Positions 10,181-34,298 of a stretch of DNA of 62,749 bases are shown here, piece by piece. The position numbers and the translations under genes are program-made. This DNA comes from Rhodohalobacter barkolensis (GTDB taxonomy: Bacteria; Bacteroidota; Rhodothermia; Balneolales; Balneolaceae). Location: positions 1 through 62,749 of the forward strand of contig NZ_PISP01000007.1 of assembly GCF_002834295.1 (NCBI RefSeq), given 5' to 3'. Below the pieces are notes generated by a model, which was not told the origin of the DNA, ran no database searches, and saw nothing but the letters and a program-made list of their open reading frames with translations. Position 1 is the stretch's first letter. Each line of letters starts with the position of its first letter.

Positions 10181-10639
10181 TTACTGACTCGTGTTGTCGT
10201 TAAAATACGCACTGATTGCATATTGCTGTTGAACCGGTTCGCCATTTAAAATTGCAGGTTCCCATCTCTCCATATTTGCTATGATTTTTTCATACATAGA
10301 TGTAATGGCTTCATGCGGGCTCATCAGTGTTTCGACCTGTCCCGCAACTCCCTCATTGTTAACCACATAAGTCATCACCAGTCGGCCGTTATATCCTTCT
10401 ATCCTGGCCTCTTCAGGAATTATTGTATTCATTTGAATATGAGATTGAAGCGCCTCATTTCCACCGGGATACTTTGCCCACTCATCCGGTTGGGGAAACT
10501 CTTCAGAGACCAGTTGATTAGGCATGGGTACTTCGGCATAACTCGCAGATGAACTGTTCACCTGATTACCGGTCGTTGAACAGCTGAACCCTACAAATAC
10601 AAAGAGTGAAAAAAGGATTGTGAATAAATATTTACGCAT
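10181..10639 (-). CDS. TonB C-terminal-domain-like lipoprotein
   Basis: A 152-aa protein with lipobox VGFSC (Cys20). From about residue 55 it matches the TonB C-terminal fold as found in Bacteroidota: KYPGGNEALQSHI, then PEEARIEGYNGRLVMTYVV, and a closing RWEPAILNGEPV. Unlike true TonB it has no N-terminal transmembrane anchor or proline-rich linker; it is lipid anchored. It may bind TonB-dependent receptors or be a stand-alone envelope protein. Followed at 12 bp by the DUF2256 gene. Confidence 0.75.
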   Translation of the reverse strand: MRKYLFTILFSLFVFVGFSCSTTGNQVNSSSASYAEVPMPNQLVSEEFPQPDEWAKYPGGNEALQSHIQMNTIIPEEARIEGYNGRLVMTYVVNNEGVAGQVETLMSPHEAITSMYEKIIANMERWEPAILNGEPVQQQYAISAYFNDNTSQ

Positions 10640-20322: not shown

Positions 20323-20351
20323 ACCGGATCAGAACGTTTCAAAATTTACAG

Positions 20352-20386
20352 CCCCGAATTGGCACCCGCCGGTTCGGGGTTTTTTA
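20352..20386 (+). terminator. Rho-independent terminator
   Basis: CCCCGAA...TTCGGGG stem, followed by TTTTTTATTTT, 29 bp after the metalloprotease stop. Nearly identical text recurs at 21305-21340. Confidence 0.85.
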
Positions 20387-20543
20387 TTTTCAGAGTATAT
20401 CTAGTACCTACAACCTCGTGAGACATTATATAAATAACGTACAATCAATTGCATACACTCACATCTTTATGCTATATATATTTGTATTTTATCTACATTA
20501 ATTGACTATATCTTATGTACTTACAAACTAAATACACCTAACA

Positions 20544-21206
20544 ATGAAATTGATCTGCCAAATATTCGTCACTGCTCTAATTACATCCATGTTAATGATT
20601 TCTCATGTTCAGGCTCAGGAATCAGAAAACTTATTACCACTTCAGGAAGGATCAAGAGCGCTACAGTTTCAAATATCCGAAAACTTTAATCTCGAATCAT
20701 TTTCCGGATCAGTCTTCTCCTACAAGCGTCAATTGTCAGATCAAAAGGCAACTCGGATTGGGCTGAGTCTCTCTTCTCAATATGCTGTAACGGATTATCC
20801 GGATGACATCAACGATCAGAACGACTCAAACATGCAATTTAACCTGGGCTTGAGCTATTCAAGAATGAACTACATTAACCCCGATTCAGAAATCAAGTTT
20901 TATTACGGTTACGGTCCGGGTGTCAATTTTGGATTGAACAGAACCGTACAGGATGAAACAAATTCAAAATTAACAAACCGATCTGTTCTCTACGGCATTT
21001 CAGGAATCGGCTACGCAGGTGTGGAGTGGTTTTTTCACTCCTCAATGAGTTTACATGCCGAATATCAAAGTTCAATTCGATTAAACCACAGACGTATCAA
21101 ACAGACGAATGAGCAAAATGCAACAGATAATTCTATCCGAAACAACTCTACAGTATTCAGTTTGGGAGGAGATGGAGTTCAATTTGGGTTATCTGTATAC
21201 TTTTAG
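20544..21206 (+). CDS. Putative outer-membrane beta-barrel protein
   Basis: A 220-aa protein with a signal peptide ending at SHVQAQ. The mature part alternates polar and hydrophobic residues with many aromatic-ended strands (LGLSYSRMNYI, IKFYYGYGPGVNFG) and ends in FGLSVYF, a C-terminal aromatic typical of outer-membrane barrels. No specific family recognised. Flanked by near-identical terminators on both sides, so probably monocistronic. Confidence 0.7.
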   Translation: MKLICQIFVTALITSMLMISHVQAQESENLLPLQEGSRALQFQISENFNLESFSGSVFSYKRQLSDQKATRIGLSLSSQYAVTDYPDDINDQNDSNMQFNLGLSYSRMNYINPDSEIKFYYGYGPGVNFGLNRTVQDETNSKLTNRSVLYGISGIGYAGVEWFFHSSMSLHAEYQSSIRLNHRRIKQTNEQNATDNSIRNNSTVFSLGGDGVQFGLSVYF

Positions 21207-21304
21207 TCTGCAAGGATTATTTGGCAGTTTGATTTAATTATAAAATTGGTCCAATTTTTACTGCCTGATATTATCAATACCGGAAATGCTTCAGGTAATC
21301 GACC

Positions 21305-21340
21305 AACCCGAATTGGCAACCACCGGTTCGGGTTTTTTAT
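21305..21340 (+). terminator. Rho-independent terminator
   Basis: AACCCGAA...TTCGGGTT followed by TTTTATTTTCAG, about 100 bp after the barrel-protein stop; a near copy of the terminator at 20352. Confidence 0.8.
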
Positions 21341-21413
21341 TTTCAGGTCTCCCCAATTACTCGGGACTGCGTACCGAGCCGAAGGCGATTCTCACAAAGT
21401 GAAAAACACGCAG

Positions 21414-21458
21414 CAAGTCTCAAGTCTCAAGTCTCAAGTCTCAAGTCTCAAGTCTCAA
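21414..21458. repeat. Tandem heptamer repeat (CAAGTCT, about 6.4 copies)
   Basis: Uninterrupted perfect copies, prone to slippage; sits 130 bp upstream of a TlpA-like gene. Confidence 0.9.
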
Positions 21459-21584
21459 GTCTCAAAATGGAATTAAACAATAAGTACCTGATTTTCTTGT
21501 CGATCTCGCCAAAAATTCTATATTTAGGAATAGTAAACATCAACGAGAGGGGCTTTTGAATACTTCAATTTTAAATGAATAGCC

Positions 21585-22607
21585 ATGAGTCGAATTCTAT
21601 TAGCAACTGCGATACTACTCTTTACAATTCCATTTCAAACCCTTCTTGGTCAAAGCGCGACTGTTCCGGCAGATTCAACATTTGAAGATTATATGAATCA
21701 AGCCTGGGATCAAATTCGAGAGACTGACTTTTCTGACAGCCTGCAAAATGTTTATTCCGTTGAATTTTATAACTACTACAAAGAAAATCCCGACACTGAA
21801 ACAGGTGAAAAAGCATTTGCACAAGCCTTTTTAATGTGGGGAAATACAGGTAATTCAGAGCATGTAAGTGAAGCGATTCAAAACCTCAGCTACGATTCTG
21901 AACTTTGGAGAATGATCGTGTCTCCAATGTCCAACATCTATGCAAGAAATGAAGATTTGAGTTTAACAGACTATTATGAACTGCTGGACTACCTTTCTGA
22001 AAAACTGACAGATCCAAACAGTAAATCAGCAGTTTTGCTCTCACTTTTACGAAAAAACTCCAGAGAAGAAGATCATAAAGAGAGAGCCGTTGATTTTGCG
22101 CGCGAGATTGTGGAAATAGATGCGAATGAATTTTATGTGACTCAAGCTTTAGGTTATTTACATGAAATTGAGTCGTTAAATATTGGCCAAAAGGCTCCTG
22201 ATTTTGATCTCCAAACAATAGACGGTGATAAGATTTCACTGGAAAGCCTGGAAGGGCAATATGTAATTCTGGAGTTTTGGGCTACCTGGTGTGGCCCCTG
22301 CCTCCCCGAAATTCCACATCTAAAGGAGCTTTATGAATCTTACCATGACAGTGGATTTACCATCATCGGAATTTCTTTAGACAGAGAGGTTAAGACATTA
22401 ACAGACTTTATTGAAGAGAGAGAAATGGAGTGGCCTCAAATTTATGTAGAGGATGGGTGGACTGGAGACATTTCAAGATTATTCAACGTTTCAGGCATTC
22501 CAAGAATGTACCTGCTTGATCCGAATGGTATTATCATCGGGAGGGATCTACGTGGCGAAGAGATGATTTCAAAAGTAGATCAATTAATGGCTGATGCTCA
22601 GCAGTAA
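21585..22607 (+). CDS. TlpA-like thioredoxin-fold protein, exported
   Basis: A 340-aa protein with a signal peptide (ending near TLLGQS). The N-terminal 180 residues are helical and acidic, of unknown role. A TlpA/ResA-like thioredoxin domain begins near residue 205 (GQKAPDFDLQTIDGD) with active site WATWCGPCLPEIP near 240. The cis-proline region (FNVSGIPRMYLLD) is present. Probably an extracytoplasmic thiol-disulfide reductase. Confidence 0.88.
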   Translation: MSRILLATAILLFTIPFQTLLGQSATVPADSTFEDYMNQAWDQIRETDFSDSLQNVYSVEFYNYYKENPDTETGEKAFAQAFLMWGNTGNSEHVSEAIQNLSYDSELWRMIVSPMSNIYARNEDLSLTDYYELLDYLSEKLTDPNSKSAVLLSLLRKNSREEDHKERAVDFAREIVEIDANEFYVTQALGYLHEIESLNIGQKAPDFDLQTIDGDKISLESLEGQYVILEFWATWCGPCLPEIPHLKELYESYHDSGFTIIGISLDREVKTLTDFIEEREMEWPQIYVEDGWTGDISRLFNVSGIPRMYLLDPNGIIIGRDLRGEEMISKVDQLMADAQQ

Positions 22608-22931
22608 TTAAAGCACCTTTATTGTTGCTCGCTGATTGACGCAGATCGATTCCGCTGAGTCCCACAGATATTCTGCGCTTAACTCCGCGAAAATCTGCGA
22701 GAAAGAATGCTAACATTATTTGAATACCTGATTCTCTTGGCGATCTCACGTAAAGTTCTATATTTATCCCTATGAATTAAATTCCCTAAAACGCTGGCCT
22801 TTAACTATGAAAAACTGTGGGTAGAACTCGTGGCTTGAAACGGTCGTAGTCTTTCAGTGACTAGTCTAGCAGCCGTATTACTTCACCATTACCGGGCTTA
22901 CATATTTCCATGACTGAATAAATGATCCTAA
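22608..22931. other. Intergenic region between the two TlpA-like genes
   Basis: No gene. It carries 'ctgcgcttaactccgcgaaaatctgcgagaaa'-type repeat text (22660-22710) and the 44-bp block at 22724-22768 shared with the region upstream of the previous TlpA-like gene. Confidence 0.6.
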
Positions 22932-23810
22932 ATGGTTAAAAAAAATATTTTCAGAATAGTGTCGGGTATTTTCCTATCCATAGCCATCCTGGCTGCGGGA
23001 TTCTACTTTTTCCTGTTTGCCAATCCTATCCATCTGCATCAAGCCAATCTTCTTAAATGGATCCCAATATTGCTTTGCTTTGGGGCCTTATTTGCAAGCG
23101 GGATAATTAATACAGAGACCCCTTCTAAGTACTTGCCTTTACTGTTCATACCCTTTATTGTTTTTGATCTGTTCAACTTCTTTTATTTCCCATTCATCAT
23201 TGTGTTAATCACTGTCGGTATACTCGCATTGGTCATTTCAAGAACCGAGGTGACCGGATATGTTAAGCTTGCATCCATCCTCCCAGTCTCTGGAATTTTC
23301 GTCTACTATTTACTGGCCCAGCCGTTGATTATTGAGCGGGATGGATTTAGGCGTAATATGGAAGGGGAATTGGTAAATGCGACTGTTTTGTGGAATCCTT
23401 TGCCGGATGGGCTTCAGGCTCTGCCAAGTCACACCCTGGTTGATGAGAATAACAATGAGTACACCTTAGACAGCGTAACCGGCAAAACTCATTTTATTGC
23501 ATTTTGGGCAACCTGGTGTGGCCCATGTATTGAGAAAAAACCTTTGTTGGATTCATTGAAGCTAGCCTATCAAGATCAAGTTGAGTTTATTGATATCTCA
23601 CTTGATGAAGACAGGGATAAATGGCAGGCATTTCTCGAAAAACACGATCCGGCCGGTTTGCAACTCATTTCAAATAACATAAACAAAACCCGAAGGGATC
23701 TTAATATCAGTTCTCTTCCCCTCCATTTCATTGTAAACCCTGAAAGGGAATACAAATCATATACATCCTTAGAGCAGGCCGGGGAAGTGCTTAAAACGAG
23801 TATTGAATAA
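22932..23810 (+). CDS. Membrane-anchored TlpA-like thioredoxin protein
   Basis: A 292-aa protein. The first 140 residues hold about four transmembrane helices. After an extracytoplasmic linker, a thioredoxin domain starts near 165 (LVDENNNEYTLDS) with active site FWATWCGPCIEKKP near 193 and cis-Pro at SLPLHF. Likely reduces or isomerises thiols at the outer face of the inner membrane. Followed 24 bp later by a small lipoprotein gene, suggesting an operon. Confidence 0.82.
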   Translation: MVKKNIFRIVSGIFLSIAILAAGFYFFLFANPIHLHQANLLKWIPILLCFGALFASGIINTETPSKYLPLLFIPFIVFDLFNFFYFPFIIVLITVGILALVISRTEVTGYVKLASILPVSGIFVYYLLAQPLIIERDGFRRNMEGELVNATVLWNPLPDGLQALPSHTLVDENNNEYTLDSVTGKTHFIAFWATWCGPCIEKKPLLDSLKLAYQDQVEFIDISLDEDRDKWQAFLEKHDPAGLQLISNNINKTRRDLNISSLPLHFIVNPEREYKSYTSLEQAGEVLKTSIE

Positions 23811-23834
23811 ATATTTACATCTCTTTTCTAAATT

Positions 23835-24338
23835 ATGGTACGTTGTGCCCTTTCACTTTTCTTGATTTCTGCCATCATATTGATCTCATGCAAGGAAAAT
23901 GAATCAACACTTGATCATCCAGAGCTTCCCCGTCACAGTTTAAACATCGATGGAGACGTTCAGCTCCAGGCTGAAATCCATTGGATCGACTCAACTCAAA
24001 CATTGGAAACAAATATCCGGGCAGAAAATGTCTCCGCGGATACGACAGTCATCGAAACCGGATCCTGTGCGTTTCAGATTTTGGCGTATTCTTCAGCCGG
24101 CTCCGGGAAAGAACTGATCTGGCACAGTCAAATGCATGAACATTTTGTTTGTTTTGATGAGCTGCTGGTGTATCAAATTCCGCCTGATGAAACGCTCTCT
24201 TTTGACAGACAGCAGTACATCAACGGAAACAGCTGGAAGCGGCCGATTCCAAAGGGTGAATGGGAGTTTGAGATTCACGCGAAATCAGAGAACGACGAGG
24301 AGATAGTGATTCCTGCGAACCGGTTGGTAATCAGATAG
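23835..24338 (+). CDS. Lipoprotein, possible BsuPI-like beta-sandwich domain
   Basis: A 167-aa protein with lipobox ILISC (Cys19). The mature part has beta-sandwich features: QAEIHWIDSTQTLETNIRAEN, SCAFQILAYS, ending KGEWEFEIHAKSEN. This resembles BsuPI-type domains in layout (NxT/xNxS...W), but the match is weak. Probably co-transcribed with the membrane TlpA-like gene 24 bp upstream. Function unknown. Confidence 0.6.
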   Translation: MVRCALSLFLISAIILISCKENESTLDHPELPRHSLNIDGDVQLQAEIHWIDSTQTLETNIRAENVSADTTVIETGSCAFQILAYSSAGSGKELIWHSQMHEHFVCFDELLVYQIPPDETLSFDRQQYINGNSWKRPIPKGEWEFEIHAKSENDEEIVIPANRLVIR

Positions 24339-24404
24339 GTTCGGATTGGTTACTTATCATCGGGCGGAATAATGGATATTGCCATGGATATATTCTCATC
24401 ATAT

Positions 24405-25094
24405 TTATTCGATCTTTTCTACCAACTCTCCATCTTCATAGCGTTCTTGCTCAATGATCTCTCCATCATCATTGTACTTGGTCATTAAGCCGTGATACTC
24501 CATTCCTTTCTTATGAGTCATCTCAAATTTAAGTTGTCCATTTGGATGCCACTGTTTAATGGAACCGAGGCCGTCTTCAGTTGTCGGTGATAACCATTCT
24601 TCAACTAATAACCCATTTTCGTTGTATTCCTTAATAGTCGCAAATCCATCCCCCACATAATCATACTCATGTCTACCCATCAAACTTCCATCTTCATGGT
24701 ATGCAGTGGTGCTTTTTAGAACTCCATCATCATATACTGTTTCACTAAACAGGCTGTCATTTTTCACATATCTCATTTTCTGTGTTCCGGTAAATGGAGT
24801 ACCTGATTTATCAAACATTATACCTGTACCTCTTTCTTCAATTCCTAATTCGTCCGCCCGATCCGGGTTTAAGTAAAGTTCAACATTCGAATACAGGTCA
24901 TCACTATTTCCGGACATATTTCGCGGATATTCACTCTCATTGGGATTCGTACAGAACATCAACGATAAGCAAAGAACCACAGGGGCTGTAATAATCTTAA
25001 TTGAAATTGAGCGGTTGCGGGAAATATTCTTTCCCATCATGCGCAGACGTTTGCTAGTAAATTTAAAGTCAATCTTTGAAGTAAACTGTTTCAT
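24405..25094 (-). CDS. Protease-less M56-paralogue tail with MORN-like repeats
   Basis: A 229-aa protein whose first about 50 residues (FTSKRLRMMGKNISRNRS, then a transmembrane segment) match the segment after the protease domain in the adjacent M56 gene. Its C-terminus (KQWHPNGQLKFEM...QERYEDGELVEKIE) matches that protein's MORN-variant/YwqK-like tail. The HExxH region is absent. It lies only 6 bp after the M56 gene and is probably in the same operon. Looks like a partial duplication kept as a separate membrane protein with an extracytoplasmic repeat domain. Confidence 0.7.
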   Translation of the reverse strand: MKQFTSKIDFKFTSKRLRMMGKNISRNRSISIKIITAPVVLCLSLMFCTNPNESEYPRNMSGNSDDLYSNVELYLNPDRADELGIEERGTGIMFDKSGTPFTGTQKMRYVKNDSLFSETVYDDGVLKSTTAYHEDGSLMGRHEYDYVGDGFATIKEYNENGLLVEEWLSPTTEDGLGSIKQWHPNGQLKFEMTHKKGMEYHGLMTKYNDDGEIIEQERYEDGELVEKIE

Positions 25095-25100
25095 AGTATT

Positions 25101-26603
25101 TCATTTAATTTTCTCTATGAGTTCCCCATCATCGTAGCGTTCCTGCTCAGTAATAGCACCATTTTCATCATAAACGGTAGTTAAGCCATGCCTTCCTCCG
25201 CCAGGAACCTTCATCTGGAATTCCCATGCCAACTGCCCATTAGGGTGCCATGCTTTATTGATTATTAACGAATCAGTATCAATTTTTTTCAGACTAAGAA
25301 CCAAGCTATCAGTATGCTGGTCACTATAATACGAAGAGACTGTATTACCGTCTTCATCCAGAGAAGGAATAACTACGGATCTGTATTGATAAGCTCCGGT
25401 ACTATCATACATGGGAAACTCAGACCGCGTTACTTTCCCATCAACGATGGTTTCTGCGTAGATAACTGAATCTGTTTCGACACTGTATGTATTTCGTTCT
25501 CCGGAATACGGCTCTCCCTCAGGGCCGATCAATACACCGGTGCGCTCATCAAGTGGGTGATATAAACCGGTGGGGCCCTCGGATTCCAATTCAACATCAG
25601 TATAGGTAGTGGGAGGCAAAGAATCCCATATTTCCTGCATACTCATAGTTTGAGGATAATTGTCTGTTTGCGCTGAAAAAACAATGATCAAGGCTACAGA
25701 TAATGGAAGGAGAAAAAGCCAAACAGCACCTACTTTTACTTTAGAAATACTTTTTCCCATCATTCGGAGCCGTTTTTTGGTCAGTGAAAAATTTATGTTA
25801 CTGGTTGTCTTTAATGAGGTTTTCCCGGCACTCACCCGGATCAGCAATTCCTGGTATTCGCTTATGGCTGAGCCGTTTTGTACAACAGCTTCATCGGCCA
25901 TGAACTCATGGTTGAGTTGAATCGCATGTTTGTAAAGATACATCAGCGGGTTGAACCAAAAGATGACTTTCAGGAATTCGATCAATAGCACATCAAATGA
26001 ATGAAACTGGCGAACATGAGTGAGTTCATGATCCAGGATCTCAGGTTCAATTTCCCCCAACTCGAACTGTTTCTTTTCCAGGAAAATGTAATCTAAAAAT
26101 GATTGAGGAGTGATCGGCTCATCCAATAAAACCAGTGTGGCATGATCTGTCTTTTTATGGGTTCCGGCTTTAACTTTATTTCTAATTTCGATCAATCCGG
26201 TCACAAATCGGATCAAAAGAAAAAGAGTGATCACTCCATAGATTCCAAATAAAACTTCTAACGGACTTATCGACCAGCTTGGCTCTTCGGTAACAACCGG
26301 GGTGCTTTCAGCTTTGGGTAAAGCTTCCTCTGTTTGTTGAGGTACGATCAACGGTTCAACAGATCTGCTTACCGCTTCAGCCGGTGCGTTGACCACGCGT
26401 TCCATCTGCTGCATATTTACACCGACCATGGATGTTTCCGGGCCCAGGTCAAAAGAGATCAACGGAGCCGTAAGTCCAAATACCAGGGCAAACAACAAAA
26501 AGAACCGGTTGAAGCGGTGCATCTTCTCGTTCTCGAGAAACAGCTTATAAAGCACAAAGAGAAGCCCAAGTAGTAAAGTGGATTTAACTAAATAGATAAT
26601 CAT
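25101..26603 (-). CDS. M56 family (BlaR1/MecR1-like) metallopeptidase with MORN-like tail
   Basis: A 500-aa integral membrane sensor-protease. Two N-terminal helices, a proline/glutamate-rich loop, a third helix (115-135), zinc motif HELTH at 192-196, further ligand glutamate in NHEFMADEA near 238, and a last transmembrane helix near 290-310. The extracytoplasmic tail (330-500) has YwqK/MORN-variant repeats (GPEGEPYSGER, WHPNGQLAWEF) instead of a penicillin-binding domain, so the signal is not obviously a beta-lactam. Third gene of the blaI-M56 operon by order of transcription. Confidence 0.82.
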   Translation of the reverse strand: MIIYLVKSTLLLGLLFVLYKLFLENEKMHRFNRFFLLFALVFGLTAPLISFDLGPETSMVGVNMQQMERVVNAPAEAVSRSVEPLIVPQQTEEALPKAESTPVVTEEPSWSISPLEVLFGIYGVITLFLLIRFVTGLIEIRNKVKAGTHKKTDHATLVLLDEPITPQSFLDYIFLEKKQFELGEIEPEILDHELTHVRQFHSFDVLLIEFLKVIFWFNPLMYLYKHAIQLNHEFMADEAVVQNGSAISEYQELLIRVSAGKTSLKTTSNINFSLTKKRLRMMGKSISKVKVGAVWLFLLPLSVALIIVFSAQTDNYPQTMSMQEIWDSLPPTTYTDVELESEGPTGLYHPLDERTGVLIGPEGEPYSGERNTYSVETDSVIYAETIVDGKVTRSEFPMYDSTGAYQYRSVVIPSLDEDGNTVSSYYSDQHTDSLVLSLKKIDTDSLIINKAWHPNGQLAWEFQMKVPGGGRHGLTTVYDENGAITEQERYDDGELIEKIK

Positions 26604-26656
26604 GACCTCTTACTGTTATTTTTTACCAAAATGGATAAATCAGTTTTTAGATACCA

Positions 26657-28432
26657 TTAATTTTTCTCCGGAGGTACAATCGATAGCTTCATTGGATAGG
26701 TCTCCCGGATGGTTTCACTTTCGGAACTGTTCTCTTCCAGATTTGAAAATGCCGTGCCAAACTGAGTTTGTGCAGCCCCATCTCTCATTTCACCGTACGC
26801 TGCCCTGATTTCATCCAACAGTTCAGTGAACTGCTCATATGGCGTCTCCGGATCTGTCTTAATTCCTATTACCGCCTGGGATGGACTTGAGGCACTCATT
26901 TCAACAAACTGTTTGATATTCTGTCTTACGTCATTCAATTCAGCCGGTTCTTCGTTCATCAGAAGCAAACCCTGACTGTTCATTAAAATCTGCATCAGGT
27001 CCCCTTCTTCTACAGGAGAAGGCGGTGCCGGTGGAGCCGGGGGTAACGTCAGATCTGCAGGGCTTTCCAAACGCTTTTCCGGTGATGGTACCAGCGGAGG
27101 AGGCGGAGGTGAATTCGGATCATCTGTTTCTACGGCTTGAATCGCTTCATACAGCTCCAATGCTTCATTATACTTTTCATTCAGCGCATCTTCATTTGAC
27201 GGGTCGGCCTCAATCTCCATATACCGATTGGCTGCTTCCAAAAATTCGTTGGTCACTCTTTCCAACTCATTGCTTGTAGAATAGGAAATCCTGAATGCTT
27301 CATAATTTCGAAGCAGGCTTTGTACATCCGTTATAAATGCAAATGGCGCGCCCGGATTCAAGCTTAACTTAACAACACCCGGGCTTTCCGGCAGATCTGA
27401 CAAATAGCTCTCCAGCTCATCTAAAGTCATCTGATTGCCATTTACAATCAGATCTTCATTTTCCCCTATTTGAATTCTAACCTCATCTACGGTTTCAACT
27501 TCGTCTGAAACCTCGGTGGTTGTGGAATCGCAACCCGGCAACAGGGTGATGGCTGCAAGCAGCGGCATGAGTGCCAGGACTTTCAATACGGATCGGAAGG
27601 CAGATTTTGATTGTGTCATCATTTGGAGTCGTTTTTTGGTGAGGGAGTAGTTCAGCGTACTCGTCAGACTGTTGACCGGACGAATCAGCATCGTATTTAA
27701 CAGAATGTTTTGGTACTCTTTCACGCTTTTCCCCTGTGAAAGAACGGCCTCATCGGCCAGAAACTCGTGATTTAACAGAATGGCTTTTTTGTAGAGATAG
27801 AGCAACGGGTTAAACCAGAAGAGAATCTTTAAGAATTCGACCAGCAAAATATCCAGGGTATGTTTTTGGCGGGCATGAGTCATCTCATGAATCATCACCT
27901 CTTCCGGGATCTCCCCATTCAGATAGCTCTTTTTATTCAAGAAAATTTGATTAAAAAAAGTGTAGGGGACATCATTCTCATTCAGAAGAATAATTTCACA
28001 GCCATTCAGTAGTCTCTTGTTATTTCGATCGGCTTTCAGTTGGATTCTGTGCACGATTCGAATCAGGCGAATAAACAGCCCCGCCGAAACAAGCACATAA
28101 ACCAACAACGCTGTCATCCAAAAAAAATAGACTTGTGAGCCGGATGCTTCATCATGTACCGCCAGAGATTCTGCGTCAACATTCATCCATTCACCGTCAA
28201 GCGCTATGAAGCTGCCGGATTCCTGACTTTTCGATTGATCAAACAATGTCAGTTCGCTGATAGGCATATCAATGAATCCTACCGGAATCAGAGGAATCGT
28301 AAAGGAGAAAAGCAGACTGAAGATCAAAAATCCCCGGTTCACCTTGTGCATCTTCTCTTTTTCCAGGAACAGGTGGTAGAAAAGAAGGAGCACTCCCAGG
28401 CTTATCGCAGAGTATATCAGGTAGATAATCAT
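26657..28432 (-). CDS. M56 family (BlaR1/MecR1-like) metallopeptidase with ExbD-like tail
   Basis: A 591-aa membrane sensor-protease: helices at 2-22, 34-50 and 103-123, zinc motif HEMTH at 182-186, Glu in NHEFLADEA (E228), and a last helix near 285-300 ending LLPGC. The periplasmic tail has two ExbD-like modules (IQIGENEDLIVNGNQMTLDEL and, near the end, VIGIKTDPETPYEQFTELLDE) joined by coiled-coil and proline-rich linkers. The start overlaps the blaI stop by 4 bp (ATGA), so the two are translationally coupled. Confidence 0.85.
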   Translation of the reverse strand: MIIYLIYSAISLGVLLLFYHLFLEKEKMHKVNRGFLIFSLLFSFTIPLIPVGFIDMPISELTLFDQSKSQESGSFIALDGEWMNVDAESLAVHDEASGSQVYFFWMTALLVYVLVSAGLFIRLIRIVHRIQLKADRNNKRLLNGCEIILLNENDVPYTFFNQIFLNKKSYLNGEIPEEVMIHEMTHARQKHTLDILLVEFLKILFWFNPLLYLYKKAILLNHEFLADEAVLSQGKSVKEYQNILLNTMLIRPVNSLTSTLNYSLTKKRLQMMTQSKSAFRSVLKVLALMPLLAAITLLPGCDSTTTEVSDEVETVDEVRIQIGENEDLIVNGNQMTLDELESYLSDLPESPGVVKLSLNPGAPFAFITDVQSLLRNYEAFRISYSTSNELERVTNEFLEAANRYMEIEADPSNEDALNEKYNEALELYEAIQAVETDDPNSPPPPPLVPSPEKRLESPADLTLPPAPPAPPSPVEEGDLMQILMNSQGLLLMNEEPAELNDVRQNIKQFVEMSASSPSQAVIGIKTDPETPYEQFTELLDEIRAAYGEMRDGAAQTQFGTAFSNLEENSSESETIRETYPMKLSIVPPEKN

Positions 28433-28800
28433 TTCTTCCTCCGCTCCAGTTCTTGCTCAACAATGTCCTGCAGCTCCTTGAGCTGATCTTCCGTCAAGTC
28501 GGTTTCCCTCGTAAAAAATGAAGCAAAGGTAGATGGAGAATCATCAAAATACTTTCGGATCAGTCCTTTCAGGTGACGCGAAAAGTAGTCCGATTTTTTT
28601 ACGGTAGGATAGTACCGGCGAGATCGACCCATCTGTTCATAGTCGATATACCCTTTATCCTTCATTCTCTTCAGCAGCGTGGCAACCGTAGTATTTGCCG
28701 GTTTCGGCTCCGGATACATCTCAAGCAGCTCATTCATGAACGCCTTTTTTCGTTTCCAGATATACTGCATTAACTGCTCTTCAGATTTGGATAGCTTCAT
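28429..28800 (-). CDS. blaI: BlaI/MecI/CopY-type transcriptional repressor
   Basis: A 123-aa winged-helix repressor: EEQLMQYIWKRKKAFMNELLE, then PANTTVATLLKRMKDKGYI (recognition helix), YYPTVKKSDY wing, and a C-terminal dimerisation helix region. This family is cleaved or released after M56 protease activation. Immediately upstream lie two palindromes of the BlaI TACAnnTGTA type, indicating autoregulation of this gene and the M56 genes. The actual inducer is unknown. Confidence 0.9.
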   Translation of the reverse strand: MKLSKSEEQLMQYIWKRKKAFMNELLEMYPEPKPANTTVATLLKRMKDKGYIDYEQMGRSRRYYPTVKKSDYFSRHLKGLIRKYFDDSPSTFASFFTRETDLTEDQLKELQDIVEQELERRKK

Positions 28801-28805
28801 AGTTC

Positions 28806-28819
28806 TACATGTTTAGAGG
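28806..28819. promoter_or_regulatory. BlaI operator, imperfect half
   Basis: TCTACATGTTTAGA, an imperfect palindrome, 6 bp before the blaI start, exactly 20 bp (about two helical turns) from the perfect site at 28826. Confidence 0.6.
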
Positions 28820-28825
28820 TTTCTC

Positions 28826-28839
28826 TACAATTGTAGAAT
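28826..28839. promoter_or_regulatory. BlaI operator, perfect palindrome
   Basis: TCTACAATTGTAGA is a perfect 14-bp palindrome containing the TACAnnTGTA core known for BlaI/MecI operators. It sits 26 bp before the blaI start codon. Confidence 0.75.
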
Positions 28840-29068
28840 TAAAATCCAAAAGATGCAACACCTTTTTTAATTTGCTGCTAAGATTTAAATATAAACTCAT
28901 GGCAGAGAATGGATTATTACTATTTTTAATCCCCCTCCCGAACTAAACGTTGTTACTGCCTGGGATTTTTTGGAATTTGTTCAAACAGAGTACAGAGTTT
29001 ATCACCGTTTCAACCGCAGTGCATCAGAGAGTTGGTTCATCATAAATTTAGGATAGACTGATAAAATC

Positions 29069-30679
29069 ATGAGCAAATCTAACAGTGAATCAGAATCCAG
29101 AAATAGCTTGTGGGAGTTCCTGGAGAATCGTGAGGTCTACCCTCATAAACCCGAACGTGTTAAGCATATCCAGACGCACATATCCCATGTGTTTATTGCT
29201 CCGCCTTTTGTTTATAAAATTAAAAAATCTATCGATTTCGGTTTTCTGGACTACAGTACCCTTGAGAAACGTAAACACTATTGTGAACGGGAAGTGGCGC
29301 TGAACCGGAGACTTTGCTCCGATATTTATCTGGGAGTCATCCCGATTTCAAAAAAGGAGAATACGTTTACTTTCAATTCAGATAATCCGGATGAGGTCGT
29401 TGAGTATGCCGTAAAAATGAAAATGCTTGATGAGGAGTATTTCCTCTACTCATATATCGAAAATGGTTCCCTGACCAACCAACATCTGGACCGGGTTGCG
29501 GATAAACTGGCGAAGTTCTATCTGCAGCAGGAACCGAAAGATGATGTTCTTCAGTATGGTGAAATTGAACAGATCCGGTTCAACACCGATGAAAACTTTG
29601 AGCAAACCGAATCTTACATCGGAAAGACGATTGAAAATGAAGAGTATCAGGCGATCAAATATTTTACCGATCAATATTTTGAAAAGAATCAGTCTCTTTT
29701 TAACCGGCGAGTGACTCAGAAACGAATCGTAGACGGGCACGGAGATTTGCACCTCGAACATATTCATATCAGGCCCGAAAGCATCTGTATTTATGATTGT
29801 ATAGAGTTTAACGAGAGGTTTCGGTGTGGCGACCTTGCAGCAGATCTGGCCTATCTTGCCATGGATCTGGATTTTCAGGAGTGCCGGAATGAGAGCCGCT
29901 ATTTCGTTGAGCAGATGGCTCAGAAACTGGATGATCCTGACCTCTCAAAAATGATCGATTTTTATAAATGCTACCGTGGCTATGTAAAAGGAAAGGTAAA
30001 GAGCCTTCAAAGCGGCGGGGAAGAGAATTCACCAAAAAAGAAAAAACAGCTCCAAAAAATAGCTAACGATTATTTTCATCTCTCCCTGCGATATGCCCTT
30101 CTGGGTTCCCATCCTGTACTTCTCATTTTCATGGGCCGGATTGGAACAGGCAAGAGTACGCTAGCTGAGCACCTGGCAAATATTCTGAAGATCGATTATT
30201 TCTCATCCGATCGTATTCGTAAAACCCTTGCCGGCCTTCCGTTGTACAAGCGTCCGGATTCATCTGCACGCGAAAAACTTTATTCGGCAGAGATGTCTCA
30301 AAAAACATACCGGCAGCTTTTTAAGAAGATCAACACACATCTGGGGTCCGGGAAAAGCGCCATCCTCGATGCAACATTCAGCCTGCGATCACAACGAAAA
30401 GAGTTCGAAAATCATCTTGAATCCATACAGGCCAATTATCTGTTCATTGAAGCTCAGGCTTCAGACGAAACCATTCTTGACCGCTTGAAAACCAGGGAGA
30501 CAGAGAAGGATACGGTTTCTGACGCCCGCTTGGAGGATTTTGAAATGCTCACCGGCAAATATGAATCACCCAAGGAGCTCTCTGAAAGCCATTTGATCAG
30601 TGTGAGCACGAAAAATCGTCTGCCCGAAACTCTTGAAAATCTCTACAAAAAGCTCGTTGATCATCATCTGCGACGATAA
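29069..30679 (+). CDS. Aminoglycoside-phosphotransferase-like plus AAA kinase fusion protein
   Basis: A 536-aa two-domain protein. The N-terminal half has a phosphotransferase/kinase-like fold with catalytic VDGHGDLHLEHI near 223 and IYDCIEFNERFRCGDLAAD metal loop near 240. The C-terminal half is a P-loop NTPase: Walker A FMGRIGTGKST near 355, followed by DYFSSDRIRKTLAG and a zeta-toxin/T4 polynucleotide-kinase-like core (ILDATFS, EAQASDETILDRLKTRE). Matches the widespread 'bifunctional aminoglycoside phosphotransferase/ATP-binding' family, whose physiological substrate is not settled. Monocistronic. Confidence 0.88.
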   Translation: MSKSNSESESRNSLWEFLENREVYPHKPERVKHIQTHISHVFIAPPFVYKIKKSIDFGFLDYSTLEKRKHYCEREVALNRRLCSDIYLGVIPISKKENTFTFNSDNPDEVVEYAVKMKMLDEEYFLYSYIENGSLTNQHLDRVADKLAKFYLQQEPKDDVLQYGEIEQIRFNTDENFEQTESYIGKTIENEEYQAIKYFTDQYFEKNQSLFNRRVTQKRIVDGHGDLHLEHIHIRPESICIYDCIEFNERFRCGDLAADLAYLAMDLDFQECRNESRYFVEQMAQKLDDPDLSKMIDFYKCYRGYVKGKVKSLQSGGEENSPKKKKQLQKIANDYFHLSLRYALLGSHPVLLIFMGRIGTGKSTLAEHLANILKIDYFSSDRIRKTLAGLPLYKRPDSSAREKLYSAEMSQKTYRQLFKKINTHLGSGKSAILDATFSLRSQRKEFENHLESIQANYLFIEAQASDETILDRLKTRETEKDTVSDARLEDFEMLTGKYESPKELSESHLISVSTKNRLPETLENLYKKLVDHHLRR

Positions 30680-30776
30680 TCCGGAAAAAGACCATTGTTT
30701 CTATCCGATTGGGTGAGGGGAAAAACACTTAGAATCAGTTGTGTGAGAAGGTGTATGAACATGCAAATATCCGGAC

Positions 30777-30808
30777 ATAAAAAAGCCCGGCTTTATTCAA
30801 ACCGGGCC
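30777..30808 (-). terminator. Rho-independent terminator of the fasciclin gene
   Basis: On the minus strand GCCCGG...CCGGGC then TTTTTTAT, 31 bp after the stop. Confidence 0.85.
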
Positions 30809-30838
30809 CATCAATCAAAACAAATTGTTAACTAAAAA

Positions 30839-31357
30839 TCAGTAACCTGATTCCTCTTCCGGTGGAAGAATTACAGCATCAATCACGTGAATAACACCGT
30901 TAGATGCTTCAATATCTGCAGAAACTACATTTGCGTCGTTTACTTTAGCACCTGCATCACTGAGTGTAATGGTTACTTCAGAACCTTCAACAGTTTCTGC
31001 CATCATTCCATCGCTCAGATCACCAGACATTACTTCACCGGCAATAACGTGGTAGGTCAGGATTTCAACAAGCTGATCCCGGTTTTCCGGCATCAACAGG
31101 CTCTCCAGCGTTCCGTCAGGAAGTGCATCGAAAGCAGCATTCGTTGGAGCAAATACCGTAAACGGTCCATCTCCTTTCAAAACATCTGTCAACTCTGCAG
31201 CCTGAATAGCGGCAAAAAGTGTTGAGAGGTCTTCTGTATCTTCAGCCATGCTTACAATGTCATGGTGGTTGTGGTCAGCATCCGATACGCTGTATGGTGC
31301 CATCGCCATATAGGAGATTGCCAATACAAGCATCAGTAAAATTTTTAAGGTCTTCAT
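30839..31357 (-). CDS. Fasciclin (FAS1) domain protein, exported
   Basis: A 172-aa protein with a signal peptide (ISYMAMAPYS) and a His-rich mature start (SDADHNHHD). One FAS1 domain fills the rest: H1 motif FTVFAPTNAAFDALP near 65-79 and H2 motif NGVIHVIDAVILPP near 153-166. FAS1 proteins mediate adhesion or interact with other envelope components. Followed by a clear terminator; monocistronic. Confidence 0.93.
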   Translation of the reverse strand: MKTLKILLMLVLAISYMAMAPYSVSDADHNHHDIVSMAEDTEDLSTLFAAIQAAELTDVLKGDGPFTVFAPTNAAFDALPDGTLESLLMPENRDQLVEILTYHVIAGEVMSGDLSDGMMAETVEGSEVTITLSDAGAKVNDANVVSADIEASNGVIHVIDAVILPPEEESGY

Positions 31358-31604
31358 AATTGTTGTTCTATTTTATTGGGGTTAAGGATCTGATATAACT
31401 AAAATTGTTATCAGAATGGTTATTTAACAGAACAACTCAGCGTATACGTTCCTGAAAACAGTTCCACCTGTAGTGGGCCTAAATAATCCCATACTACATT
31501 GGACTTCAGTGGGTTAAACGCCCCAAAATTTGGATTGACAAAAGATTAGATCTAGAAAAACTGTAGAAATTAAATGTGAATTGAGAACAAACGGAGATTA
31601 ATTC

Positions 31605-32264
31605 TCAATCCCACCCCTTTTCACCAATCAAAGGAACAAATTTGAAGTGGCTTAATCTCTCCTCTTTAAAGTCATTTTCACCTGTTCGGGTAATCCGGAT
31701 CATCACCTGACTTTTCTGATCTCCCACAGGTACTACCAGCTTCCCTCCAATATTGAGCTGCTGTTTGAGATCTTCGGGTACAACCGGAGCTCCTGCCGTA
31801 ACAACAATTCCATCATACGGTGCATAGGCACTCCACCCGAGTGTGCCATCACCTAATTTCAAATGCGGGCGGTACCCCAGCTTTTGTAATGTCTCTTTTG
31901 CATTCTGATAAAGTTTTTCATGACGTTCCACACTGTAAACATCTGCCCCCATTTGACAAAGAATAGCTGCCTGGTAACCTGACCCGGTTCCGATTTCCAA
32001 TATTTTATCCCCTTTTTCTACTTCAAGTAGTTCGGTTTGAGCCGCGACCGTATATGGCTGAGAGATGGTTTGCCCATTTCCGATTGGAAGTGCGGAATCC
32101 TCGTATGCCCGATTTTCAAAAGCTGTATCCACAAAAACATGTCTTGGAACGGACTGGACAGCCTGAAGAACATTCTTGTCCTTAATTCCTTTTTCTTCAA
32201 TAATTTTTACCAGCTTCGCCATCCGGCGACTGAATCGTTTGTGAGATCTATTACCCTTTGTCAA
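31605..32264 (-). CDS. pcm: Protein-L-isoaspartate O-methyltransferase
   Basis: Repairs isoaspartyl residues using S-adenosylmethionine; 219 aa, cytosolic. Diagnostic motifs: YEDSALPIGNGQTISQPY (about 58-75), SAM motif ILEIGTGSGYQAAIL near 94-108, and GDGTLGW followed by APYDGIVVTAGAP near 150. The N-terminus RFSRRMAKLVKIIEEKGI is typical. Stands alone. Confidence 0.95.
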   Translation of the reverse strand: MTKGNRSHKRFSRRMAKLVKIIEEKGIKDKNVLQAVQSVPRHVFVDTAFENRAYEDSALPIGNGQTISQPYTVAAQTELLEVEKGDKILEIGTGSGYQAAILCQMGADVYSVERHEKLYQNAKETLQKLGYRPHLKLGDGTLGWSAYAPYDGIVVTAGAPVVPEDLKQQLNIGGKLVVPVGDQKSQVMIRITRTGENDFKEERLSHFKFVPLIGEKGWD

Positions 32265-32564
32265 TGAAAAATCCGTTTAATATACCCGATTGTTGATGAA
32301 TCCTAAATATATCACCATTTTCTCCTTCTAACATATCAAAATATGCAATGAGTATCGACTCGTACTGTTAAAGTGTCCATTGACCTGAAAATTCGAGCAT
32401 TCAAATCTCCTTCTCAGTGTCTTTTAGCTCATTTCCTAATCAGATTGGCTAATAAAATATTATCACGTAGTAGCATCTACCCAACTTTCAATATTTAAAT
32501 TGTATTTAATGGCAATGCTTGTATTTTCAATGCAGAAAAAAATGTTTACCAAGCTCTTATTGAA
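32265..32564. other. Divergent intergenic region between pcm and nhaC-like gene
   Basis: AT-rich, about 300 bp, no gene and no repeat recognised. Promoters for both divergent genes presumably lie here but I cannot place them. Confidence 0.4.
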
Positions 32565-34298
32565 ATGAAAAAATTTGGCTTTATAATCGGTTTTATTCTT
32601 CTTTCCACACTGTTTTTCGGATGGTTCGATGTCCATGCAATGATGCAGGAAGAGCCAACGGAAAACGGATATTACGGAACCTGGATCAGTTTACTCCCTC
32701 CCATCGTTGCAATTGGCCTGGCACTGATCACACGTGAAGTTGTTCTTTCGCTGTTTGCAGGAATCTGGATCGGGGCCCTTTTTATTGTGAGTCTGAATCC
32801 ATTTGCAGGTACAGCAGAATCGCTGGATTTGCTGGTTAACGCTCTGGTAAATGCCGATCATATCGCTATTATCGTTTTTAGCATGCTTCTCGGTGGAATG
32901 GTTGGTGTGATGTCGCGAGGCGGTGGAACACAGGGTGCTGTTGATATACTTGGCAAGTTTGCCACAAATCGAAAGAAGGGACAACTTCTATCTTGGGCTT
33001 CTGCACTGTTTATCTTTTTTGATGACTACGCCAACACGCTCATTCGCGGAAATGCTCTTCGCCCGATGACGGATCGACTGAATATCTCCCGTGAAAAACT
33101 TGCCTACATTGTAGACTCCACAGCGGCACCTCTGGCCGTAAGTGCAGTCATCACCACGTGGATTGGTTTTGAAATTACACAGATTCAGAATTCACTCTCC
33201 GGAATTGCAGAACAGACTACCGATCCTGAACTGGCTGCCCAACTGATGGCCGGAGCCGATAATGCCTTTACGATTTTCCTACACTCTGTCCCCTATCTTT
33301 TCTACCCGCTACTTGCGCTTGCCTTTGTTCTGATGACCATCATCATGAAGCGTGAGTTTGGTCCTATGTATGATGCTGAAAAAAGAGCAGCTTCAGGTAA
33401 CGGGGTGATTCGCGAGGGGTCGATGCCGGCTACAGATACCAGTTTATCCAGTCTTCAGCCAAAAGAAGGCAAGCCAAAACGTTGGCAGAATGCCGCGTTC
33501 CCGGTTATTTCAGTTATTCTGGTAGCTCTTTATGGACTTTACAGCACAGGAAGTGCAGGTTTAGTAGCCGGCGAAGGCGGGCTAACCGCTATTATCGGTA
33601 ATGCCGATCCTTTTGCCGCACTGCTTTGGGCGTCATTCACAGGTTGTATCGTAGCTATTGGGCTGGTCGTCTTTCAAAAGGTGTTGACACTCAATGAGGC
33701 GCTTGAATCATGGGTAGGCGGCATGCAGTCGATGTTGATGGCGGTTATCATTTTAATTCTGGCTTGGGGACTTGGCGGTGTGACGCAGGAAATCGGAACC
33801 GGAACCTATCTGGCCGGACTCCTTGAGGATACTCTTCCACTTGCTCTGCTTCCCGGACTTGTTTTCTTCATTGCTGCAGTCACTGCATTCTCTACAGGTA
33901 CCAGCTGGGGCACCATGGCCATTCTTTTTCCAGTCGTTGTTCCACTGGCCATTGTGATGGGTGCCGGTGTTGGATTTGCAGGAGGAGAAAACTACGGAAT
34001 TCTTCTTGGGTCTGTCAGTTCGGTAATGGCAGGTGCTGTTTTTGGAGATCACTGTTCACCGATTTCCGATACCACCGTTCTAAGTTCAATGTCTTCGGCG
34101 TGTGACCTTATTGACCACGTGAGAACTCAACTTCCATACGCCTTGGTTGTTGCCTTTGTAGCCTTGGTTGTCGGTGAACTACCCGCCGCTTTCGACTGGA
34201 TCCATCCGGTTTGGGGACTACTGGCAGGGTTAGTAATCCTATACTTCATTCTGAAGTATTTCGGAAAAGATCCCGAAGCCACAGCGGCTCAGGCGTAA
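32565..34298 (+). CDS. nhaC: NhaC-type Na+/H+ antiporter
   Basis: A 577-aa protein with 11-13 transmembrane helices. The N-terminus looks like an uncleaved or cleaved signal helix (FGWFDVHAMMQEE). NhaC-family features: LLPPIVAIGLALITREV, FFDDYANTLIRGN with acidic residues in the membrane near 155-168, the STAAPLAVSAVITTW repeat motif near 190, and SGTSWGTMAILFPV plus GDHCSPISDTTVLSS near the C-terminus. Probably exports Na+ against protons. Monocistronic. NhaC is best by style, but substrate is not proven. Confidence 0.88.
   Translation: MKKFGFIIGFILLSTLFFGWFDVHAMMQEEPTENGYYGTWISLLPPIVAIGLALITREVVLSLFAGIWIGALFIVSLNPFAGTAESLDLLVNALVNADHIAIIVFSMLLGGMVGVMSRGGGTQGAVDILGKFATNRKKGQLLSWASALFIFFDDYANTLIRGNALRPMTDRLNISREKLAYIVDSTAAPLAVSAVITTWIGFEITQIQNSLSGIAEQTTDPELAAQLMAGADNAFTIFLHSVPYLFYPLLALAFVLMTIIMKREFGPMYDAEKRAASGNGVIREGSMPATDTSLSSLQPKEGKPKRWQNAAFPVISVILVALYGLYSTGSAGLVAGEGGLTAIIGNADPFAALLWASFTGCIVAIGLVVFQKVLTLNEALESWVGGMQSMLMAVIILILAWGLGGVTQEIGTGTYLAGLLEDTLPLALLPGLVFFIAAVTAFSTGTSWGTMAILFPVVVPLAIVMGAGVGFAGGENYGILLGSVSSVMAGAVFGDHCSPISDTTVLSSMSSACDLIDHVRTQLPYALVVAFVALVVGELPAAFDWIHPVWGLLAGLVILYFILKYFGKDPEATAAQA

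Follow-up and report, generated by a model that had tools for sequence, protein, structure and literature searches.

What does a BlaI-type regulatory operon respond to when the penicillin-binding domain expected on its membrane receptors is absent? The question is raised by a locus on contig NZ_PISP01000007.1 of Rhodohalobacter barkolensis (Bacteroidota; Balneolaceae), a contig of 62.7 kb in a genome of 3.6 Mb; the whole contig is referred to here as the window. Four genes lie on its minus strand behind one promoter region, namely blaI, two genes for M56-type membrane proteases (receptors A and B), and a small gene designated P0004 (Table 1). Judging by the sequences described below, the switch that they encode is probably a monitor of the cell envelope and not of penicillin. 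The explanation that we favor, and hold tentatively, is that the locus is an autoregulated BlaI/M56 switch in which the receptors report on the Ton/envelope machinery and the output is a periplasmic MORN-type protein. In what follows, genomes are labeled G### (G000 being the source genome) and loci L###, g17 is a genus, and f24 is a family.

The periplasmic tail of receptor A was described as ExbD-like in the initial annotation. It is indeed of the ExbD type (Pfam ExbD, E 2e-10; 41.2 bits against a cut-off of 25.4), and it can be refined into two distinct domains, the first resembling ExbD2 and the second ExbD1 of the same cell, where the two proteins are encoded in a cluster, exbB-exbD1-exbD2 (Pfam MotA_ExbB, ExbD and ExbD). 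In one-sequence searches the C-terminal end of receptor A was found to share 43% of residues with ExbD1 along 123 aa (E 7e-34); an earlier stretch was aligned with ExbD2 by blastp (16/38 aa, E 6e-7). The corresponding segments of 27 receptor A relatives were scored against the ExbD2 and ExbD1 of their own genomes, except that the G000 proteins served as stand-ins in six genomes. Domain 1 gave z scores of 8.7 to 19.1 against ExbD2 in 26/27 relatives and of -1.0 to 6.0 against ExbD1; the exception, G074, apparently carries ExbD1-like copies instead, as judged by reading. In all relatives having the domain 2 stretch but G025 (20/21), this domain scored 28.7 or more against ExbD1; its scores against ExbD2 were -1.1 to 2.4, and a control segment from the M56 core scored -1.4. 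The exbD1 and exbD2 genes were adjacent in all 21 genomes examined. Sites that are invariant in housekeeping ExbD1 were kept in the receptor copies at 60% on average, as against 28% for variable sites. When the modeled tail was compared with the PDB using Foldseek, the five best matches were ExbD periplasmic domains, some of them with TonB peptides; the matches include 8pek, 8p9r, 8vgc and 8vgd (E 7e-4 to 0.02, TM by target 0.60 to 0.81). The matched stretches comprise the periplasmic part only, the membrane helix of the ExbD stator being missing from the tail. In a tree of 41 ExbD1 domains, the labels receptor and housekeeping change four times, with at least two of the changes forced, and the G074 receptor copy, which sits on a long branch, groups with the ExbD1 of its own genome (96/83). 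The label changes and the G074 grouping make it likely that ExbD was captured or renewed more than once.

Since the tail replicates the periplasmic domains of ExbD2 and ExbD1, it should have the same ligand as the ExbD pair, which would be the TonB linker strand or peptidoglycan. In E. coli, an ExbD dimer captures a strand of the TonB linker, the D-box (PMC10907165). By analogy, an ExbD2-ExbD1 tandem within one chain could likewise capture the TonB linker strand.

A Ton-derived tail is also found at the other BlaI-M56 pair of the source genome (G000:C1, L126 5262-9131), where the M56 core is followed by TonB_C and CarbopepD_reg_2. The TonB part is identical to the cell's TonB at 82/106 positions (77%); two of the cell's TonBs are about as near to each other (72/100). 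Downstream of this M56 gene are two TonB_C genes with lipoprotein-like starts, one of which aligns with the M56 protein over the full length of its tail (68/244 columns identical, in an alignment without a shuffle control). From its sequence, then, the second locus also combines a receptor with a free gene related to the receptor's tail. Because the tail of receptor A copies ExbD2 and ExbD1 and the second locus copies TonB, the Ton machinery or its contacts are indicated as the thing sensed. The initial annotation had postulated an envelope cue not yet described; a periplasmic signal other than a beta-lactam does appear the likelier, and the cue can be sharpened to this machinery. Beyond these two loci, an M56 match was obtained in 140/198 genomes of the phylum (101 over the cut-off), and 61 wider M56 proteins carry TonB_C in 19 cases, ExbD in 3 and Amidase_3 in 2. 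A further M56 candidate in L004, by reading a protease of the HtpX-like kind, was dropped, as it fell below the cut-off. Elsewhere in the window, the minus strand at 10181-10639 encodes a short stand-alone TonB_C protein that begins like a lipoprotein (28.8 bits, cut-off 24.6) and lacks the membrane anchor of TonB.

Two operators spaced by 20 bp had been proposed to lie before blaI. The first, O1, is an exact palindrome and the second, O2, is imperfect; their starts are 20 bp apart. Within the window alone, 6 sites were found at up to 3 mismatches versus 2.9 expected, and 8 of 100 shuffles reached 6. This count is not significant, and the case for the operators therefore rests on conservation. 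We compared 43 blaI upstream regions of the order, taken from loci chosen for receptor or tail matches. O1 was present in 42 of them, the exception being the TonB-type pair of the source genome, where blaI is without the O1/O2 operator. O2, allowing up to 4 mismatches, lay exactly at +20 from O1 in 40/42 regions, and was missing there from L117 and from one of the two L104 blaI genes. It is regularly the weak site, beginning with TCTAA in 36/40. The pair, with up to 2 mismatches, occurred in 45/128 genomes of the order, and a reversed pattern in 2. The same 20-bp pair precedes a BlaI-sized gene in Aquimarina, Tenacibaculum and Flavobacterium loci (L285, L289, L280 and L290), and L292, L309 and L310 are among the loci with a second site at a longer spacing. 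In 64 wider loci having a BlaI-sized gene abutting M56, TACAnnTGTA was found within 150 bp upstream in 25 and not in 39.

O1 overlaps a promoter of the Bacteroidota type, the boxes being labeled according to the consensus of that phylum (-7 and -33). The sequence TACATTTG was found in 31/42 regions; the version in the window, TACAATTG (28835-28828), lies within O1 at the position of the -7 box. A TTTG occurred 18-23 nt upstream of the -7 box in 31/42 (shuffles: mean 2.5, maximum 9), and TTG at the same distance in 41/42 relatives (shuffles: mean 6.1, maximum 14). BlaI bound to O1 would thus cover the -7 box. A scan for sigma-70-type promoters and terminators was uninformative, with 9 found versus 10.5 in shuffles.

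Which other genes might BlaI control? The initial annotation had suggested searching for the operator elsewhere to define the regulon. The exact site TCTACANNTGTAGA was found 60 times in 52/128 genomes of the order, with a sum of 26 for reversed patterns. Seventeen of the 60 sites are away from blaI; among 16 that were inspected, 14 lie inside ORFs and one, in G043, has an O2-like partner, and the seventeenth, in G075, has an O2 partner as well. The paired operator was more selective: it occurred at 48 places in the 128 genomes, of which 43 are blaI promoters with the gene seen and one (G052) is at a contig edge, so that 44/48 mark the blaI operon. The remaining four are in G012, where the pair is chance-like, and in G043, G075 and G078. 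In G043 (L183 1558-1591) the pair, with a degenerate O2, precedes a lipoprotein with a DUF5128 six-bladed propeller; in G078 (L342 1270-1303) and G075 (L103 7916-7949), both of genus g17, it precedes a DUF4837 lipoprotein. The source genome has one operator pair. A wider regulon there was considered and rejected, the 14-bp site giving 24 places at up to 2 mismatches compared with 18 for the reversed pattern; of its two one-mismatch sites, one is within a dnaX-like gene and the other precedes an unrelated ORF (both named by reading), and neither is paired. By the paired-operator search, the regulon is essentially the operon itself, to which weaker or single BlaI sites may add. Since nearly all of these genomes show no recognizable target besides the operon, one would expect the output to be encoded there.

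The few pairs located elsewhere bear on an alternative that we consider possible but less likely than Ton sensing, namely that the receptors are general sensors of the envelope or peptidoglycan. The ExbD-type tails would then bind peptidoglycan or outer-membrane debris, not TonB, and the likeness would reflect domain origin only. The g17 pairs before the DUF4837 lipoprotein are consistent with this possibility, more so because the pair in G078 lies beside three Skp-like genes and one BamA-like gene (named by reading), as are the Amidase_3 tails in 2 of the 61 wider M56 proteins. In addition, the bla response of B. licheniformis is reportedly triggered by a peptidoglycan fragment (PMC3305447). 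Weighing against a general sensor are the tails, which match ExbD2 and then ExbD1 specifically, and in that order, and the copy of TonB at the second locus, which brings the Ton theme to both receptor loci of the source genome.

The initial annotation had described an operon of three genes; these are present, and a fourth, P0004, extends the unit, moving its end from 25101 to 24405. P0004 starts 6 nt past the end of receptor B, is a relative of the receptor B tail, and gives the clearest MORN_2 match of the operon (39.1 bits, cut-off 29.6). The exact operator pair was found in 30/296 genomes of the phylum and its reversed control in none. Nine of the 30 are outside the family of the window, all of them in family f24. 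At seven of these nine places, a small gene with a lipoprotein-like start is directly behind the operator, and at the other two the operator is at blaI. Pfam ranked MORN_2 first in all six of the f24 lipoproteins scanned; the remaining one, L347, is short and was judged by eye. Next to the seven genes, blaI and M56 were found in four cases and were not found within 1.5 kb on either side in three. These lipoproteins behind the operator, together with P0004, make a MORN-type envelope protein the likeliest output, as far as the sequences indicate.

The free tail genes beside the receptors begin with a TSxxxFSLTKKRLxMM-like segment, which in the fused receptors precedes the last membrane helix. 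The segment aligns with the autocleavage loop of BlaR1 and the swapped helix that follows. The BlaR1 loop comprises residues 271-289 and is cut in cis at 283/284 (PMC9834060). The aromatic residue of the segment is F or Y in 27/27 receptor A relatives, in 38/38 members of the MORN set, and in 49/61 wider M56 proteins. Relatives carry arrays of tails, with seven free genes in G039 and, in G041, five in a row and one apart. A tree of 38 tails comprised 25 free and 13 fused ones; along it the fused/free label changes 7 times, at least 5 of them forced. Tails of the window's receptor B type occur as free genes in G027 and G033, and a tail of the P0004 type is part of a receptor in G035. Compared block by block, the window's receptor B and that of G044 share 84 to 97% of residues as far as residue 335, after which 3/15 residues agree; past residue 351, the G044 tail shares 86/143 positions with a free G035 tail versus 47/139 with the window's. 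By the alignments and the tree, MORN tails have repeatedly passed between receptor genes, where they are fused, and genes of their own. The M56 gene stops before the loop in G041 and G033 and tail genes come next, but since the junctions are, by reading, one frame change and one single in-frame stop, split genes are suggestive only. We also considered that the free tails might be silent cassettes. This is disfavored because they have their own starts and because dN/dS is 0.13 in the one measurable close pair; in three further pairs, including P0004, synonymous sites are saturated and yield no ratio. The free MORN tails at L121 5000-5200 and L122 4600-4740 lie directly after BlaI-like remnants, the tail ORF alone still being open. 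As we read these two loci as decayed BlaI/M56 leftovers, nothing is drawn from the lost motif of the orphan tails L120-L123. The exchange of fused and free tails suggests how one membrane protease could swap its sensor.

In the mechanism that we favor, we infer repression, protease action, Ton sensing and the role of P0004 as output. BlaI, bound to O1 over the -7 box and to O2 about two helical turns away, before the start codon, would repress its own operon. Each M56 receptor would be a membrane zinc protease kept off by its own loop; when the periplasmic tail is engaged, the loop would exit the active site, and BlaI would be cut. Receptor A would report on the Ton motor through its replica of the ExbD2 and ExbD1 periplasmic domains, and receptor B would bear an exchangeable MORN-type tail. 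The output would be the operon itself, that is, extra receptors and the free periplasmic MORN-type protein P0004.

Several observations weigh against this reading. The match to ExbD2 in receptor A is short. Most of the ExbD1-like part is gone in 6 of the 27 receptor A relatives, and G025 holds an unrelated stretch at that position. The structure models (full receptor A, pLDDT 74 and pTM 0.42; tail alone, pLDDT 78 and pTM 0.40) give usable folds but no reliable relative placement of the two ExbD domains at such pTM values; as the two-domain arrangement is not predicted, the TonB-binding pair is a guess. MORN_2 stays under its cut-off in 5/6 of the scanned f24 lipoproteins and in receptor B, for which a MORN-like tail had been claimed; the family is listed there with 18.7 bits (E 0.002), short of the required 29.6. 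No P0004-type gene was seen after receptor B within the stretch examined in G042 and G044, which belong to the same genus, and P0004 as output is therefore not universal. Finally, many relatives have blaI and a single receptor only.

One could also envision that the tails act rather than sense. The freed ExbD-like and MORN-like parts, abundant after the BlaI cut, would disturb or brace the Ton motor or the envelope, making the receptor its own effector. A regulon that is essentially the operon would suit this explanation, as would the free TonB_C lipoproteins at the second locus. Furthermore, the last helix ends with a Cys (Cys301 in receptor A), preceded by G, A or S and followed by D or E, in 24/27 receptor A relatives, which is lipobox-like, and signal peptidase also cuts BlaR1 past its last helix (PMC9834060). 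Phe precedes the Cys in 22/25 MORN tails, however, so that these have no lipobox. Among the wider M56 proteins (110 loci, 90 parsed and 20 unparsed), a Cys ends the last helix in 43/90 and is lipobox-like in only 21/90. The idea that receptor tails are lipoproteins is suggestive for the ExbD type, unsupported for the MORN tails, and not general. We regard an effector role of the tails as improbable.

A beta-lactam resistance switch with an unrecognized drug-binding domain is a very remote prospect, even though the repressor and the protease are of the types found in bla and mec systems. The initial annotation had noted that penicillin-binding tails are absent, and Pfam searches at E up to 1 agreed, listing no transpeptidase, penicillin-binding or beta-lactamase domain in the four operon proteins; no beta-lactamase or penicillin-binding family was found in nine neighbor genes within 17839-34298. 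Scores of the NCBI models for BlaR1/MecR1 sensors ranged from 12 to 51.5 bits, far short of cut-offs that run from 400 to 1200, and the tail of receptor A is predicted to fold as ExbD. Because a penicillin-binding tail was not found, a non-beta-lactam periplasmic cue is the likelier. Least probable is that the genes are decaying or non-functional duplicates, which the broken copies in relatives (a frame shift in G029; the decayed-looking L121 and L122) might suggest but which is at odds with open frames, conserved operators, and dN/dS of 0.10 to 0.25 where measurable.

By its sequence, the operon fits the BlaI/M56 systems in repressor, protease and operator, and lacks the feature by which the beta-lactam sensors are defined. 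As in BlaI-BlaR1 and MecI-MecR1 of S. aureus, there is a BlaI-family repressor, an HExxH M56 membrane protease with a loop-helix before the last helix, and palindromic operators with the core TACAnnTGTA. Unlike those systems, the locus has two receptors per repressor, ExbD and MORN tails, and free tail genes, and has neither a penicillin-binding tail nor an in-operon resistance gene. Bacteroidota M56 proteins with TonB_C tails, a Pfam architecture, share the M56 core and a Ton-derived tail, but an ExbD2-like and ExbD1-like tandem replaces TonB_C here. The ExbD of the Ton motor (ExbB-ExbD-TonB) shares its periplasmic fold and sequence with the receptor A tail, whereas the receptor copies lack the ExbD membrane helix and are attached to an M56 protease. 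In Mycobacterium tuberculosis, the M56 partner of BlaI (Rv1846c-Rv1845c) is not known to have a penicillin-binding domain or a mimic tail. In the open-access literature, most subscription papers being outside it, we recognized no paper on BlaI/M56 receptors with such tails and found none on the function of M56 proteins with TonB_C tails. What appears to be new is the Ton-derived tails, the sharing of one repressor by two receptors, and free tails that can be exchanged.

More speculatively, and with less likelihood than the mechanism for this operon, BlaR1-type proteases of Bacteroidota may monitor the Ton motor by carrying replicas of its parts, ExbD2 and ExbD1 on one receptor and the TonB end on another, an idle or unpaired partner docking on the replica and triggering BlaI cleavage, with sensor ends that are modules, fused or separate, plugged in at the autocleavage loop. 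The tail itself would suggest the thing sensed, a copy of a machine part already in the cell, and what such receptors listen to thus becomes directly testable. A feedback on TonB-dependent import is possible. M56 proteins are commonly annotated as beta-lactam sensors, and the present case is a caution not to label such genes as antibiotic-resistance determinants.

The blaI gene and the two M56 genes of the initial annotation were located by Pfam on the minus strand as described, with blaI and receptor A overlapping by 4 nt. The blaI product matches the MecI structure 1okr (E 3e-12), and the aligned MecI retains the Phe at the known BlaI cut site (PMC9834060). Peptidase_M56 scored 64.0 and 65.3 bits in the two receptors (cut-off 31), with E 2e-17 for receptor A. 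The protease residues HExxH, Glu223 and Asp227 are invariant in 27/27 receptor A relatives, the motif in receptor B reads HELTH, and the full model of receptor A has BlaR1 as its best PDB matches in Foldseek. The dN/dS values of 0.10 to 0.25 apply to those stretches of receptors A and B that could be measured and to one free-tail pair; a blaI pair gave 0.002, with synonymous sites near saturation.

Table 1. Positions in the window of the features of the blaI operon.
Feature	Position	Strand	Remarks
Candidate -33 element, TTG	28856..28858	-	20 nt from TACAATTG in O1
Operator O1, perfect palindrome TCTACAATTGTAGA	28824..28837		exact match
Operator O2, TCTAAACATGTAGA in operon direction	28804..28817	-	3 mismatches; 3 nt before blaI start codon
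blaI, BlaI/MecI-family repressor, 123 aa	28429..28800	-	Penicillinase_R 100.7 bits (cut-off 22.6), E 8e-29
Receptor A, M56 protease, four membrane-helix regions and two-part ExbD-type periplasmic tail, 591 aa	26657..28432	-	
Receptor A juxtamembrane segment TSTLNYSLTKKRLQMMTQSK, matching BlaR1 autocleavage loop and next helix	27605..27664	-	
Receptor A tail domain 1, aa 315-392, like the cell's ExbD2	27257..27490	-	
Receptor A tail domain 2, aa 471-591, like the cell's ExbD1	26660..27022	-	43% identity over 123 aa
Receptor B, M56 protease with MORN-type tail, 500 aa	25101..26603	-	Peptidase_M56 E 7e-18
P0004, stand-alone tail gene, 229 aa: juxtamembrane segment, membrane helix and MORN-type tail, without protease	24405..25094	-	

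The divergent neighbor of the operon, on the plus strand at 29069-30679, encodes a protein that joins a kinase-like (APH) part and a P-loop AAA_33 domain.

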